Source: Synechococcus sp. BSA11S (lineage in GTDB: Bacteria > Cyanobacteriota > Cyanobacteriia > PCC-6307 > Cyanobiaceae). Taken from it: DNA of 64,000 nt. The notes under the pieces are model-generated. The model was not told where the DNA came from, ran no database searches, and saw nothing but the letters and a program-made list of their open reading frames with translations. The DNA lies in assembly GCF_014224355.1 (NCBI RefSeq), contig NZ_VNWP01000004.1, positions 124,001 to 188,000 on the forward strand. Direction: 5' to 3'. Below are positions 19,860 to 26,628 of this stretch, piece by piece. Position 1 is the first letter of the stretch, and the number at the start of each line of letters is the position of its first letter. Made by a program: the position numbers and the translations under genes.

Positions 19860-20654
19860 TCAGCCCCTGCGCCGGAGCACCAGCGGCAGCAGCAGCAGGC
19901 TCAGCACCCCGATCAGTGGCCCCGGCGGCAGGTTGATGGCTGGCTGAATCGCCAGCACAAAGCCGCAGCCGGCCAGCAGGGCCCCGATCAGGGCCGCCCG
20001 CAGCAGGGCCTGGCGCAGGCTGATCGCCCCCTCCAGGGCCAGCAGGGCAGGAGCCGCCATCAGGGCGATCACCAGCACCACCCCCACCGCCGTCATGGCG
20101 CTGACCACCGTGAGCGCAGTCACAACGGTGAGCAGCAGGCGCAGGCGTCCCACCGCCAGCCCGGAACTGGCCGCCCCGAGGGGGTCCACACCCAGGAACA
20201 CCAGCTGGCGGTAGCGGAAGCAGAGCAGCCCCAGCACCGCCAGCAGCGACAGGCCGGTGCGCAGCAGATCCGGCGCTCCGGCAGCGAGCAGATCACCGAA
20301 GAGCACCGCTTCGAGGTTCACACGGATGCGCAACAGCGGAATCAGCAGCACCCCAAGGCCCAGGAATCCGGCCAGCACCGTGTTCAGCACCGCCTCATCG
20401 CCACGGCCTCCGGAGCTGGCGGGCCGGCTGAAACGCTCCGCCAGCAGGGCGCCGGCCACTCCGCTCACCACCCCGCCCAGACCTGGGTCGAGGCCCAGCG
20501 CCAGGGCCACCGCCAGTCCGGGCAGCACGGCATGGGAGATCAGATTGGCCTGGAACAGGCGACCCTGCACCAGCAACAGGGTGCCCGCCAGGGGACAGAG
20601 CAGGCCGCTGAGCAGGGCCAGAGCCAGGGGCAGCATCCACCAGGTCGCGGTCAT
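19860..20654 (-). CDS. znuB: Zinc ABC transporter, permease subunit
   Basis: A 264-residue inner-membrane protein of the metal ABC-3 permease family with about eight transmembrane segments. NLISHAVLPGLAVALALGLD carries the family His, and SAMTAVGVVLVIALMAAPAL is the conserved core. Two upstream Met codons (20693, 20723) are alternative starts; 20654 leaves room for a promoter between it and divergent zur. The znuC, znuA and zur neighbours make zinc the likely substrate. Confidence 0.9.
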   Translation of the reverse strand: MTATWWMLPLALALLSGLLCPLAGTLLLVQGRLFQANLISHAVLPGLAVALALGLDPGLGGVVSGVAGALLAERFSRPASSGGRGDEAVLNTVLAGFLGLGVLLIPLLRIRVNLEAVLFGDLLAAGAPDLLRTGLSLLAVLGLLCFRYRQLVFLGVDPLGAASSGLAVGRLRLLLTVVTALTVVSAMTAVGVVLVIALMAAPALLALEGAISLRQALLRAALIGALLAGCGFVLAIQPAINLPPGPLIGVLSLLLLPLVLRRRG

Positions 20655-20725
20655 CGGGCTGCTTCTGGGCGGAGGAACTGGGGGGGTCTGCATAGGATCC
20701 CGCCCAGGGGCCGGGTCAGACACCG

Positions 20726-21139
20726 ATGGATTCCGAGGCGGACAGCCAGCAGCTCAACGCCAAACAGGTGAGCGTGCTGGCGATGCTGCGCGAGAGCAGC
20801 GAGGAACTCTCCGGTCAGGAGCTGCACCAGCGCCTGCGTCTCAACGGCCAGCCGATCGGACTGGCCACGGTCTACCGGCACCTGCGCCAGCTCCAGCGCC
20901 TGGGTCTGGCCCGCTGCCGCCACCTGCCCAGTGGTGAGGCCCTCTATGCCCCCCGGGAGCGAGACACCCATCACCTCACCTGCGTGTCCTGCGGCCTGAC
21001 GCTGCCGCTGGACCACTGTCCGATGCATGGCATCCAGCCCCAGCCCGAGGCGGCCCAGGGCTTTGAGCTGTTGTTCCACACCCTGGAATACTTCGGCCGC
21101 TGTCCGCGCTGTCGCCACTCCGCCAGCGCAGACACCTGA
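20726..21139 (+). CDS. zur: Fur-family regulator, probably Zur
   Basis: A 137-residue regulator. A winged helix contains LSGQELHQRLR and the recognition region LATVYRHLRQLQRLGLARC. The HHLTCVSCG and later CPRC motifs form the structural Cys4 zinc site. Within the Fur family (Fur, Zur, PerR), its position between znuB and znuC and the two nearby palindromes of Zur type argue for Zur. It is expected to repress zinc uptake when zinc is sufficient. Confidence 0.88.
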   Translation: MDSEADSQQLNAKQVSVLAMLRESSEELSGQELHQRLRLNGQPIGLATVYRHLRQLQRLGLARCRHLPSGEALYAPRERDTHHLTCVSCGLTLPLDHCPMHGIQPQPEAAQGFELLFHTLEYFGRCPRCRHSASADT

Positions 21140-21150
21140 ACACAGCGCCA

Positions 21151-21846
21151 TCAGCCGCAGCAATGGTTACCCAGGCGCAGGTCGCCAAGGGAGTGGCGCA
21201 CTGAGGCCGGGGGACCATCGGCCAGCAACCGCCGGTCAATCACCAGCACGCGGTCGTAGGCATCGAGGTCGTGGCCCCAGTCGTGGCTGCTCACCAGCAG
21301 AGTGAAGCCAGCATCACGCAATTGGCCCATCACCTGCAGCAACTGGGTGCGGGAGGGGGGATCAATCGCCGCGCAGGGTTCGTCCAGCAGCAGCACCGAA
21401 GCGGGCTGCACCAGCAGGCGGGCCAGCAGGGCCCGTTGCTGCTGGCCGCCGGAGAGCTGATCAAGGCGGCGCGAGGCCAGGGCATCAATCCCCACCCGCT
21501 GCAGAGCCGCCTCAACGGCGCAGCAGCCGGGGCGGGCCGCCATCAGCCGGCCGAGGCCCACCAGCTCACGCACGCTGATCGGAAAGTGCCAGGCAATTTC
21601 CCCCCGCTGAGGCATCAGGGCCAGCTGGCGCCGGGCCCGGCGGGGGGTGAGCGCTGCACCATCGAGCAGGAGTTCGCCGGAGAGCAGGGGGATCTGGCCT
21701 TCGATCGCCTGAAGCAGGGTGCTCTTGCCGGCGCCATTGGGTCCCACCAGGGCGGTGAGGGTGCCAGGGTCCAGGCGAAAGCTGATGTCCTCCAGGGCCA
21801 GTCCCTCGCCGCGGCGCACGCTGAGATGACGGGCCTCGAGGGCCAT
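21151..21846 (-). CDS. znuC: Zinc ABC transporter, ATPase subunit
   Basis: A 231-residue ABC ATPase: Walker A LVGPNGAGKSTLL, Q-loop LMPQRGEIAWHFP, signature LSGGQQQRALLARLL, Walker B VLLLDEPCAAID, switch His in LLVSSHDW. The C-terminus ends NHCCG, which could bind metal. The Met at 21846 starts the family text; the longer frame to 21981 would overlap the operator. It is divergent from znuA and convergent with zur. Confidence 0.93.
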   Translation of the reverse strand: MALEARHLSVRRGEGLALEDISFRLDPGTLTALVGPNGAGKSTLLQAIEGQIPLLSGELLLDGAALTPRRARRQLALMPQRGEIAWHFPISVRELVGLGRLMAARPGCCAVEAALQRVGIDALASRRLDQLSGGQQQRALLARLLVQPASVLLLDEPCAAIDPPSRTQLLQVMGQLRDAGFTLLVSSHDWGHDLDAYDRVLVIDRRLLADGPPASVRHSLGDLRLGNHCCG

Positions 21847-21946
21847 CGGCACCGGCAGAGGGGAAACGTTGTCGCAACCTACCGACGACCGAGGCGACCG
21901 GCTGCCGCAAGTCCGGTGAGAGCGAGGGCCTGAGAGCGGTCTGAGA

Positions 21947-21961
21947 TGAGAACTGTTATCA
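21947..21961. promoter_or_regulatory. Probable Zur box between znuC and znuA
   Basis: TGAGAACTGTTATCA is an imperfect 6-3-6 palindrome (one mismatched pair) of the TGATAA-N3-TTATCA kind recognised by Fur-family regulators. It lies 45 bases before znuA and 101 bases before znuC, so it could control both. The surrounding 22 bases match the element upstream of the porin at 23700, including an identical GTTATCATTCT. Confidence 0.75.
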
Positions 21962-22005
21962 TTCTTAGGCCTTGCCTGCACTCAGTGCGACGCAGTCCGC
22001 CACCC

Positions 22006-23034
22006 ATGGCCCCCGGCCCGGGCCCCTGGCCGTCCCCCTGGGGGAAGCCGCTCCCACCGGCGCTGCTGCTGGTCTGCGCAGGCCTGGGGATTGCCCTGCT
22101 GGCCTGCAGCCGAAGCCCGGATCCGCCTCAGGTGGTGGCGGCTGATGGTGTGCTCTGCGATCTCAGCCAGCGGCTGGCCGCCGGCAAGCTGAGTGTGAGC
22201 TGCCTGCTGCAGCCCAGCGATGATCCCCACGACTTTCGGCTCCGCCCCGAGCAGAAAGCCCAGATCACCAGCGCCGGGCTGCTGCTGATCAGCGGCTACG
22301 GCCTCACCCCGGCCTTGGCGGGTCTGCCGGGGGCGGTGGCCGTGTCCGAGCAGGCGGTGCCCCAGCCCCCCAGACTCACGCCAAAAGGCGACCAAGACCA
22401 CGCCAGTGATCACAACCACAGCAGCGACAGCGGCCACGATCACGGCGGCCAGGACCCACATCTCTGGCACAATCCCCGCCAGGCGGAGGCCATGGCGGCG
22501 GTGATCGCGGACCAACTCAGTCAGCTGGATCCGCCGGCAGCTGAGGGCATCCAGCGGCGCTCCAAGGCCATGGGCGCGCTGCTCCAGCGCCTTGACGCCT
22601 GGAATCGGGTCCAGTTCAACTCCATCCCCAGGCCCTGGCCTCCCCTGGCCAGCAGCCACCGCGCCTTCGCCAGCCTGGCTCTGGCCTACGGCCTCGATGA
22701 ACTGCCCCTGGTGGATGCCACCAGCACCAGTGAGGCACTGCGGCCCGACGCCTTCCGCCAGGTCGTCGAAACTCTCCGTGCCGGCTCCACCCCGCGCCTC
22801 TTCGCCGAGCAGAGCCCTCCCGCGAGAACGCTCCAGCGCATCAGCGAACTCAGCGGTGTGCCGATCGCTGCGGTGCCCCTGGCCGCCGATGGCCTGGCCA
22901 TGGGTCCCGAAGGTCCCCTCAGCCTGATGGCCACCCTGGTGCGCAACACCTGCACGATCGTCGATGGCTGGGGCGGCCGTTGCGACCGCCAGGGGGGTGA
23001 GGCCCTGGTACGAGCCTGGTCGCAGATCAACTGA
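22006..23034 (+). CDS. znuA: Zinc ABC transporter, substrate-binding lipoprotein
   Basis: A 342-residue cluster A-I solute-binding protein. The N-terminus ends in a lipobox (GIALLACS), so it is probably a lipoprotein. Metal-ligand regions include DDPHDFRLRPEQ, the His after DPHLWHNPRQAE, and SSHRAFASLALAYG. A loop rich in His and Asp (DQDHASDHNHSSDSGHDHGG) is typical of zinc rather than manganese binders. The start at 22006 follows a putative Zur box. Confidence 0.92.
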   Translation: MAPGPGPWPSPWGKPLPPALLLVCAGLGIALLACSRSPDPPQVVAADGVLCDLSQRLAAGKLSVSCLLQPSDDPHDFRLRPEQKAQITSAGLLLISGYGLTPALAGLPGAVAVSEQAVPQPPRLTPKGDQDHASDHNHSSDSGHDHGGQDPHLWHNPRQAEAMAAVIADQLSQLDPPAAEGIQRRSKAMGALLQRLDAWNRVQFNSIPRPWPPLASSHRAFASLALAYGLDELPLVDATSTSEALRPDAFRQVVETLRAGSTPRLFAEQSPPARTLQRISELSGVPIAAVPLAADGLAMGPEGPLSLMATLVRNTCTIVDGWGGRCDRQGGEALVRAWSQIN

Positions 23035-23083
23035 TGATCAAGGAGACATGATCAAGGAGTCATGATCAAGGAGTCATGATCAC
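23034..23083. repeat. 14-base tandem repeat, about 3.5 copies
   Basis: The unit ATGATCAAGGAGTC repeats at 23034-23047 (one base different), 23048-23061, 23062-23075, and partly from 23076. The first copy overlaps the znuA stop codon. Each unit holds a TGATCA palindrome. It may be a slippage product or a protein or RNA site. Confidence 0.85.
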
Positions 23084-23087
23084 CCAG

Positions 23088-23119
23088 CGACGTATCTTAT
23101 CTCACAGAACGTCGTTTTT
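23088..23119 (+). terminator. Possible Rho-independent terminator of znuA
   Basis: CGACGT at 23088-23093 pairs with ACGTCG at 23109-23114, followed by TTTTT. The loop of 15 bases is rather long, so this is a moderate call. Confidence 0.5.
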
Positions 23120-23185
23120 ACTCGACGCAGGGCAATACAAAGTCAGATTCCTTACTAATCTTTTCGTGGACTGTTCGCGGCTCCA

Positions 23186-23341
23186 ATGGTCCAAGCACAG
23201 CCTGTCATTGTCTTCGCTCTGGGGGTTGGAATCACTGGCGGAGCAGTGACCCTTCCAGCTGGCCATGTGAACCCCATGGCTGGCGCGACAGCCTCTCAGA
23301 TGGGACCCGACCGCAATCTCCAACAGGCCTCATTCTCGTGA
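23186..23341 (+). pseudogene. Possible remnant of a membrane protein gene
   Basis: A 51-codon frame encodes a hydrophobic stretch (VIVFALGVGITGGAVTLP) followed by AGHVNPMAGAT, which faintly recalls the first NPA half-helix of aquaporin-type channels. The remaining family sequence is absent on either side. The resemblance is short and may be chance. Confidence 0.2.
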
Positions 23342-23699
23342 CCATTGCTGGCTGTGCTGCGCAGCGGTGGGCCTGTCATCTACCTGCCGTGCCTGAAAGA
23401 CCGCCGACCTGGCCTTTGGCAGCCATCAACAACATGTCAGGCTGAATCTTTTACTCTTTTAGGAGCAGAGCGAAGCCCAGATCGCTCAAATGAAGCGCAA
23501 TCCGATGCCCTGCCTGACCACGGGTGGTAACGCCCAATGGGAGTGGCGTCTTCACTTTGCAGGTCAATACGCTCTCGAATGAGTGGACCAAGTTCTGGGC
23601 CGCTGATCCCGAGCCAAAGGAAGGGTGCTGGCCCGCCCCGCCCATCACCAGAGCGACAACGCCAGAGCAACAACCGGCGCAGAACGACGAAGAGTCAAG

Positions 23700-23714
23700 C
23701 GATAATCGTTATCA
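23700..23714. promoter_or_regulatory. Probable Zur box upstream of the porin gene
   Basis: CGATAATCGTTATCA is a 6-3-6 palindrome with one mismatched pair; its core GATAA-TCG-TTATC is perfect. It lies about 88 bases upstream of the porin start. It matches the znuA element over 22 bases with about four differences, which supports shared control by the Zur encoded at 20726. Confidence 0.72.
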
Positions 23715-23801
23715 TTCTCATGCCGACTCCTGGGAGACCGACGCGTTGCCTCGACGCCTCGGGCCGGATCCTCCAGGTCACTTTTGAGCCCTTCGCCACC
23801 G

Positions 23802-25391
23802 ATGACTCACCTGCTGCTGCGCCTGGTCGCTCCAGTCGCCCTTGCACTGCTGTCCCCTGTTGCCCCCCACCCCTGCCCTGAGGCAATGGCGGCTGAGTTG
23901 AACCTCGACGGCATCAATCGATACGCCAACAGCTCCTTCGACAACAGCCAGGACCAGGTCACCAGCATCACCCAGTTCTCGGATGTGCAGCCCACCGAGT
24001 GGGCCTACCAGGCGCTCTCGAACCTGATCGAGCGCTATGGCTGCGTCGCTGGCTACCCCGATGGCATCTTCCGTGGCAGGAAGCCGCTGAGCCGCTGGGA
24101 AGCCGCTGCTCTGCTCAACGCCTGTCTCGATCGGATCACCGAGGTGACCGACGAACTGCGCGGTCTGCTCAAGGAGTTCGAGAAGGAACTCGCCATCCTG
24201 CGCGGCCGGGTCGACAACCTCGAGGCCAAGGTCGGTGAGCTGGAGGCCAACCAGTTCTCCACCACCACCAAACTCAGCGGCCTGGCCACCTTCGTGGTGG
24301 GGGCCAATGCCTTCAATGGCAGCTCCAGCGATACCGTGAACGCCGCCCGAGCCGAGGTGGGTGCCACCACGTTCAGCTATGACCTCCAGCTGACTCTCGA
24401 CACCAGCTTCACTGGCAAGGACCTGCTGCGCACGATTCTGCGGGCGGGCAACTTCCGAGACTCGGCCTTTGGTGGGGCCGGGCCCACCGGAAACCTCTCC
24501 GGCCTGGAGATCGCCTTCCAGGAAGCATCGGGTGCCGATTCCCTCGGTATCGACAAGCTCTACTACCAGTTCCCGCTGGGCAGTGGGTTCACCGCGACAC
24601 TCGGCGGCCGGGTGGGGCAGGAGGACATGCTTGCCCTCTGGCCCAGCGTGTATCCAACCGACACCATCCTGAACGTGCTCACCCTCAACGGGGCGCCGGC
24701 GGCCTACAACAAGAATCTCGGCCCCGGAGCCGGCCTCTGGTGGCAGAGCAATGGCTGGAGCGTCAGCGGGAGCTACGTGGCCGCCAACGGCAACCTGGGC
24801 AACCCGAACGTGGGGGGGATCGGCACCAGCGCTTCCGCGGGCACCGGTACCGTTCAGATCGGCTACCGCAAGGAGCAGTGGGCTCTGGCGGCCACCTATT
24901 CCTATCTGCAGAGCAGCGTGGAGGTGCCTGGCGCCACGCCCTTCGCCAGCACCGCTGGTGCAGAGCCGGGCAGCCACACCAACGCCTTCGGCCTGAGTGG
25001 CTACTGGCAGCCCGCCGCCTCAGGCTGGATCCCCTCGATCAGCGCCGGCTGGGGCCTCAACACCACCTCCTACGACGACACCCAGGACGACGGTGCTCTC
25101 GCCACAAGCCAGTCGTGGATGCTGGGCCTCCAGTGGAGCGATGTGTTCGCCAGGGGGAACGCTTTGGGCCTGGCGGTCGGCCAGCCTGTGTTTGCAACGG
25201 CCCTGCAGGGTGGAGCAACGCCTCAGGATCAGAATTTCGTCTGGGAGTGGTGGTACAGATTCCAGGTCAGCGACTCGATTTCGGTCACTCCGGCCCTGTT
25301 CTATCTGAGCCGGCCCCTCGGCCAGGGCACCCCATCAGGGGAGAGCTTCAGCCAGCTGGGAGGCCTGGTGAAGACCAGCTTCCAGTTCTGA
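23802..25391 (+). CDS. SLH-domain OprB-type outer membrane porin
   Basis: A 529-residue outer-membrane protein. A signal peptide precedes an S-layer homology domain (FSDVQPTEWAYQALSNLIERY and GYPDGIFRGRKPLSRWEAAALL), then a coiled coil (about 30 residues ending AKVGELEANQ) and an OprB-like beta barrel ending in Phe (LVKTSFQF). Such cyanobacterial porins are often annotated as iron uptake porins; the upstream Zur-type box and the zinc genes around it suggest a role in zinc entry. The ATG at 23802 is preferred over the TTG at 23784. Confidence 0.9.
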   Translation: MTHLLLRLVAPVALALLSPVAPHPCPEAMAAELNLDGINRYANSSFDNSQDQVTSITQFSDVQPTEWAYQALSNLIERYGCVAGYPDGIFRGRKPLSRWEAAALLNACLDRITEVTDELRGLLKEFEKELAILRGRVDNLEAKVGELEANQFSTTTKLSGLATFVVGANAFNGSSSDTVNAARAEVGATTFSYDLQLTLDTSFTGKDLLRTILRAGNFRDSAFGGAGPTGNLSGLEIAFQEASGADSLGIDKLYYQFPLGSGFTATLGGRVGQEDMLALWPSVYPTDTILNVLTLNGAPAAYNKNLGPGAGLWWQSNGWSVSGSYVAANGNLGNPNVGGIGTSASAGTGTVQIGYRKEQWALAATYSYLQSSVEVPGATPFASTAGAEPGSHTNAFGLSGYWQPAASGWIPSISAGWGLNTTSYDDTQDDGALATSQSWMLGLQWSDVFARGNALGLAVGQPVFATALQGGATPQDQNFVWEWWYRFQVSDSISVTPALFYLSRPLGQGTPSGESFSQLGGLVKTSFQF

Positions 25392-25458
25392 GCCAGGCGT
25401 CAGACTGCTGCCACACCTTCTAGGCCGCTGCGCTCCCCTGCGGCACCATTCCTTCTCC

Positions 25459-26628
25459 ATGACCACCACCGCCACTCCCGCCAGCTCGAGTCAACCCTCA
25501 GCAGCCCCCCTGGTCGCCGGAATTGATCCGGCGCCCAGCTCTCTGCCGGTAACGATCCTCACGGGCTTCCTCGGTGCCGGCAAAACCACCCTGCTGAACC
25601 ACATCCTCACCAACCAGAGCGGTCTGAAGACCGCTGTGCTGGTCAATGAGTTCGGTGAAATCGGCATCGACAACGACCTGATCATCGCCACCGGTGAAGA
25701 CATGGTGGAGCTCAGCAATGGCTGCATCTGCTGCTCGATCAACGGCGAGCTGCTGGAAGCGGTGGAGCGGATCCTGGAGCGCCCGGAGCCTGTGGATTAT
25801 CTGGTGGTGGAAACCACCGGGCTGGCCGATCCCCTGCCGGTGGCGATGACCTTTCTGGGCAGTGAGCTGCGCGACACCACCCGCCTGGATTCGATCATCA
25901 CCCTGATCGATGCCGAGAACTTCGAAGAGAGCAGCTTCGAGAGCGAAGTGGGCCGCGCCCAGGTGATCTACGGCGACATCCTGATGCTCAACAAGTGCGA
26001 TCTGGTGCCCGAGCCGAAGTTGCAGCAGCTGGAAAGCCTCCTGCGCAACCTCAAACCGGATGCCCGCATCCTGCGCTCGGTCAAAGGAGACGTGGCCCTG
26101 CCGCTGCTGCTGAGCGTGGGCCTGTTCGAATCCGACCGGGTGGTGGACGGAGACGCCACAGTCGCCGCCGAGCCCCAGGGTGCGGACCAGCTCGACCATG
26201 GCGACTGTGACCACGACCATGGCCACTGCAGCCACGACCACAGCCATCATGACCACAGCCATCACGCCCATAGCCACGAGCATGATGCGGGATCAGCTGA
26301 GCATCCAGCCGATCACCTCGCGATCGAGGGCTTCACCTCGCTCTCCTTCTCCAGCGATGGGCCCTTCGCCCTGCGCAAATTCCAGAATTTTCTCGATAAT
26401 TTGCTGCCGACGGAAGTCTTCAGGGCCAAAGGGATCCTCTGGTTCAACGAAAGCGAGCGGCGCCACGTCTTCCACCTGGCTGGGAAGCGTTTTTCGATCG
26501 ACGACGGTGACTGGACGGGTGAGCGCAAGAACCAGCTGGTCCTGATTGGCAAGGATCTGGATCACAAGCGCCTGCGCCGCCAGCTTCAGGCCTGTGTGGC
26601 CAAGGACGCTGGCCAGGGCTTCGCCTGA
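25459..26628 (+). CDS. CobW/COG0523-family metallochaperone GTPase with His-rich loop
   Basis: A 389-residue G3E GTPase. Walker A is ILTGFLGAGKTTLLN, the metal-binding GCICCSI is the family CxCC motif, and LNKCD gives base specificity. Between the GTPase and the C-terminal CobW_C domain (RAKGILWFNESERRHVFHLAG) lies a run of about 35 residues with alternating His and Asp (CDHDHGHCSHDHSHHDHSHH). This layout is typical of zinc-related members rather than CobW of cobalamin synthesis, and no cobalamin genes are nearby. It follows the porin by 67 bases, probably in one transcript. Confidence 0.92.
   Translation: MTTTATPASSSQPSAAPLVAGIDPAPSSLPVTILTGFLGAGKTTLLNHILTNQSGLKTAVLVNEFGEIGIDNDLIIATGEDMVELSNGCICCSINGELLEAVERILERPEPVDYLVVETTGLADPLPVAMTFLGSELRDTTRLDSIITLIDAENFEESSFESEVGRAQVIYGDILMLNKCDLVPEPKLQQLESLLRNLKPDARILRSVKGDVALPLLLSVGLFESDRVVDGDATVAAEPQGADQLDHGDCDHDHGHCSHDHSHHDHSHHAHSHEHDAGSAEHPADHLAIEGFTSLSFSSDGPFALRKFQNFLDNLLPTEVFRAKGILWFNESERRHVFHLAGKRFSIDDGDWTGERKNQLVLIGKDLDHKRLRRQLQACVAKDAGQGFA

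Follow-up and report, generated by a model that had tools for sequence, protein, structure and literature searches.

The DNA analysed here, called the window, is a stretch of 64,000 nucleotides with a GC content of 65.6% from the 2.88-Mb genome of Synechococcus sp. BSA11S. Judged by zur, the closest named strains are Synechococcus sp. CS-1329 (97%), WH 5701, 1G10, J7-Johnson and Cruz-7E5. We found a gene cluster in the order znuB(-) zur(+) znuC(-) znuA(+) porin(+) GTPase(+), together with two predicted Zur boxes, as follows.

19860–20723, minus strand: znuB, ABC-3 permease (Pfam ABC-3)
20726–21139, plus strand: zur, Fur family, SynZur-like (Pfam FUR; match to PDB 7NE9)
21151–21846, minus strand: znuC, ABC ATPase, divergent from znuA (Pfam ABC_tran)
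21947–21967, plus strand: predicted Zur box 1, 21 bp, centre 21957, in the znuC–znuA gap (from consensus, matrix and conservation)
21957–21962, plus strand: TATCAT, -10-like, inside box 1 and facing znuA (putative promoter element)
22006–23034, plus strand: znuA, zinc-binding component (Pfam ZnuA, 1.9e-41)
23700–23720, plus strand: predicted Zur box 2, 21 bp, centre 23710, upstream of the porin (from matrix and conservation)
23710–23715, plus strand: TATCAT, -10-like, inside box 2 and facing the porin (putative promoter element)
23802–25391, plus strand: SomB-type porin, SLH plus OprB-like barrel (NCBIfam NF033921, 2.9e-81; Pfam OprB and SLH)
25459–26628, plus strand: COG0523 GTPase (CobW/ZigA-like) with a His-rich loop (Pfam cobW, 2.5e-57)

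The start of znuB was placed at GTG 20723, with a later ATG near 20693 or 20654 as the alternative. The znuC–znuA gap spans 21847–22005, and the porin begins with ATG at 23802. Directly 3′ of the znuA stop, a 14-bp unit, ATGATCAAGGAGTC, is repeated in 3.5 tandem copies (23034–23082).

The Zur encoded in the cluster was ~60% identical to crystallised SynZur (7NE9; E=1.5e-46). It retained all eight SynZur zinc ligands (D80, H82, C98, H118; C86, C89, C126, C129), the SynZur residues being D77, H79, C95 and H115 in the sensory site and the Cys4 83/86/123/126 in the structural site (PMC9337993). In a tree, the window Zur grouped with SynZur and apart from Fur, in a part of the tree that was poorly resolved inside Zur.

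The preliminary description had pointed to two palindromes, and these were found where it placed them, TGAGAACTGTTATCA at 21947–21961 and CGATAATCGTTATCA at 23700–23714. The 6-3-6 symmetry ascribed to them held at five of the six positions in each palindrome, not at all six; when read as 7-1-7 arms, the usual reading for the Fur family, the first palindrome was symmetric at 6/7. The extended match was real: TTCT follows both palindromes, so that GTTATCATTCT is common to the two sites. Taken as 21-bp boxes, both sites fitted the published cyanobacterial Zur consensus, NTNANAATGATNATCATTNTNAN as quoted in PMC9337993, at 13 of 16 informative positions, and both had the form that we used to define a Zur box, a 21–23 bp palindrome AATGAT-N-ATCATT with flanks. 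The 15-mers first described sit 3 bp off-centre, the box centres lying 3 bp further to the right. The shared right flank, which had been taken for a possible second contact site, is thus the outer portion of the second half-box and no separate site, and is better read as the other half-box plus the -10-like TATCAT. Across seven genus loci the core of the box in the znuC–znuA gap was invariant and its surroundings were variable. Three close relatives (1G10, J7-Johnson and Cruz-7E5) retained the core of the znu site with a changed outer right flank, indicating that the flank is not strictly conserved at this site.

Within the 64 kb, GATAAYNRTTATC with at most two mismatches was found at just these two sites. 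This pattern is weak alone, with 0.5 matches expected and at least two in 10 of 100 shuffles, and to that extent the data would agree with palindromes that arose by chance or belong to unrelated AT-rich promoter sequence. Since the simple pattern was too weakly significant in the window, a matrix was built from other promoters. When it was trained only on znuA2 promoters, which belong to a different zinc operon of other genera, the two sites ranked first and second of the 64 kb (23.93 and 23.67 bits). With the same matrix the next separate site scored 12.8 bits, and 60 Markov windows gave a mean maximum of 13.4 bits and a top score of 21.4 bits. Genome-wide, TGAKAAYNRTTMTCA with at most one mismatch occurred at eight places, five of them at zinc genes; the other three lay within an ilvB-like coding region, in a phage-like region and near glycosyltransferases. 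Pattern matches across the genus were mostly at zinc loci, and the reversed control gave 0–1 per genome and strand. The remaining genome matches (L002–L005, L139 and L142) were judged from their surroundings to be chance occurrences, L002 being inspected less closely.

A motif search in related genomes, which had been proposed as a check, revealed that the box recurs at znuA, znuA2 and the porin across genera. For this search a symmetric matrix was trained on the znuA and znuA2 boxes, with the porin upstream regions held out, and the 1% threshold was set at 6.9 bits from 790 shuffles. The held-out porin regions exceeded the threshold in 29 of 41 relatives, with a median of 19.6 bits, and 12 of the 41 were without a scoring box; the training sets scored in 22/24 (znuA) and 21/25 (znuA2) upstream regions. 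Some of the genomes sampled are close relatives of one another, which makes these counts less than fully independent. The two sites thus combine a position at zinc-uptake promoters with conservation in relatives (znuA 22/24, porin 29/41). The regions upstream of znuB and of the permease scored in 0 of 30 loci each. The earlier statement that no box precedes zur or the GTPase holds within the window; among relatives, 10 of 82 zur upstream regions and 1 of 52 GTPase upstream regions scored. Where a genus has zur and znuA2 in divergent orientation, a single box serves both genes. The independent matrix and the cross-genus conservation contradict chance, and we regard an origin of the palindromes by chance or in unrelated promoter sequence as almost certainly wrong.

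Fur-family boxes resemble one another, and the sites might instead be Fur boxes, with a porin that answers to iron, or be common to Fur and Zur. The genome encodes one Fur and one PerR-like protein, and the porin family carries the name 'iron uptake porin' at NCBI. However, znuA and znuA2 of different genera are preceded by the same motif, the locus has its own zur gene and the site lies between znu genes. Furthermore, futA-like upstream regions of the genus scored below 0 bits, with start sites that were crudely called and two loci (L186 and L189) that were uninformative because they were in the wrong frame. Flavodoxin promoters, a weak control drawn mostly from AT-rich relatives, showed no consistent box, and the two genus members searched gave no match. 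We therefore consider control of these sites by Fur, alone or shared, to be highly unlikely.

The genome also encodes a second Zur paralogue, Zur2, on contig C6. Besides zur2, its locus (L037, G000:C6, 1336–10891) contains znuA2/znuC2, a further two COG0523 genes and boxes of the form TGAGAA-N3-TTCTCA. As Zur2 retains the conserved DNA-contact stretch and the zinc ligands, and its locus bears boxes of the same class, it might be the main regulator of the window boxes in place of the window Zur, or the two might compete. The Zur2 locus was present in two of nine genus members, however, and the seven without it still have znu boxes; the window Zur, moreover, is syntenic with the boxes. A leading or competing role for Zur2 is thus unlikely. 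The idea that one paralogue reads GATAA half-sites and the other GAGAA half-sites was dropped as unsupported, because genomes without Zur2 also have GAGAA-type boxes. Two records bear on zur in other respects. In one relative (L042, 8773–10864; G076) zur is split by ~1.65 kb with an apparent 417-aa transposase; this is a candidate natural zur-null, and its znu and porin boxes are still recognisable. The second record (L135), titled Bifidobacterium breve, contains this cyanobacterial zur locus and is probably mislabelled or a mixed bin.

The preliminary description had placed the porin and the downstream GTPase in the Zur regulon. For the porin, membership in the predicted regulon is well supported by the motif, its conservation, the cognate Zur gene nearby in the cluster and, as controls, two paralogous porins that have no box. 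Like other SomA/SomB porins (NF033921), the window protein has an SLH domain followed by an OprB-like barrel and lies above the curated cut-off; it differs in that, of the genome's three SomB-type porins, the window copy alone has the conserved Zur box. For the other two, the best score within 1.5 kb was 4.6 bits, and neither has a box there. A TonB plug domain was detected in none of nine genus genomes, and the control detected it in E. coli, Caulobacter and Bacteroides. With no TonB-dependent receptor detected in the genus, the porin is the likely route of zinc entry through the outer membrane, suggesting that cells without TonB-type receptors turn on a dedicated porin when zinc is short. 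In PMC9705863 a cyanobacterial porin is cited as binding zinc. The window porin, with its conserved box and its place next to znu and zur, offers a specific, testable candidate for the passage of zinc across the outer membrane in picocyanobacteria that have no TonB receptors.

For the GTPase, no box was found in its own promoter (25392–25458), and Zur control of the gene would be possible only by read-through from the porin. Whereas 67 bp separate the two genes in the window, the distance is -1 to 97 bp in roughly half of the relatives and 280 to 1632 bp in others. In three loci without an intervening porin, a box-like sequence lies just before the GTPase. The protein contains a His/Asp-rich repeat loop, HGDCDHDHGHCSHDHSHHDHSHH (window 26193–26276), which is likely metal-binding. 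In one Cyanobium MAG (L080, 12094–12240) a cobalamin riboswitch, absent from the window, lies between the porin and the GTPase.

To explain how the boxes could act, the orientation of TATCAT is informative. Although the matrix is symmetric, gene-facing TATCAT at columns 11–16 was found in 28 of 55 distinct boxes (porin 16/24, znuA 7/14 and znuA2 5/17), against 0 facing the opposite way. Scans for sigma-70 promoters and terminators gave nothing useful. For WH8102, PMC9337993 reports binding of SynZur to the znuA promoter, repression of znuC and znuA, and a box that lies across the -10 elements of both genes. The asymmetry in our boxes fits an operator fused to a -10 element, the arrangement described for znuA and znuC under SynZur, which would make promoter blocking the best explanation of repression.

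Collectively, these data suggest that both sites are operators of the Zur encoded in the same cluster. When zinc is sufficient, zinc-loaded Zur dimers would occupy the 21-bp boxes containing TATCAT, and bound Zur would block RNA polymerase at znuA, at the divergent znuC and at the porin. As zinc runs low, Zur would depart, and the cell would make the binder of the periplasm and the transporter of the inner membrane together with the outer-membrane porin, through which zinc probably enters. We infer binding, repression and passage of zinc through the porin, and give this explanation as a whole (Zur operators, promoter block and a porin co-induced under zinc shortage) a probability of roughly 0.84. 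Counted against it were the 12 porin regions without a scoring box, the second Zur paralogue, the NCBI family name of the porin, the absence of a porin from the Zur-dependent set of WH8102 (PMC9337993) and the finding that Zur of Anabaena regulates the TonB receptors but none of the porin-like genes studied there (PMC9705863).

A further feature of the cluster is the position of zur, which lies on the plus strand, antisense between znuC and znuB on the minus strand (window 19860–21846). The same layout was found in 23 loci of several genera and, among named loci, in 22 of 80. In the window, 11 bp separate the convergent znuC and zur ends, and 2 to ~71 bp separate the divergent zur and znuB starts; across loci, the znuC and zur ends range from a 16-bp overlap to 32 bp apart, and the znuB start is near or inside the zur start. 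In Prochlorococcus MIT 0701, znuC and znuB are contiguous.

Several known systems are close to this cluster. As in the SynZur regulon of WH8102 (PMC9337993), a divergent znuC/znuA pair has one common Zur box, predicted here to lie over both -10 elements, and both regulators have a D-H-C-H sensory site and a Cys4 structural site. In WH8102, however, zur (synw2401) is unlinked to znu and the eight Zur-dependent genes include neither a porin nor a COG0523 gene, whereas here zur lies among the znu genes and a box of its own precedes a porin. The Zur (FurB) regulon of Anabaena PCC 7120 likewise covers a zinc importer, COG0523 genes and an outer-membrane component; there this component consists of TonB-dependent receptors (PMC9705863), and here it would be a porin. 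Finally, znuB-zur-znuC is a candidate for a noncontiguous operon of the menE-menC-MW1733-ytkD type (PMC7154746), in which an opposite-strand gene is embedded between two genes of the same pathway, as was found in the 23 loci, and which similarly leaves little room for separate signals. It differs in that the embedded gene would be the operon's own repressor. A derepressed znuC transcript may cross zur in antisense to reach the box-less znuB and so lower Zur further, a proposal that we make tentatively and at less than even odds; if true, antisense read-through of zur would make derepression self-reinforcing. The nested zur also provides a clean case for asking whether a target's transcript can silence its own repressor.
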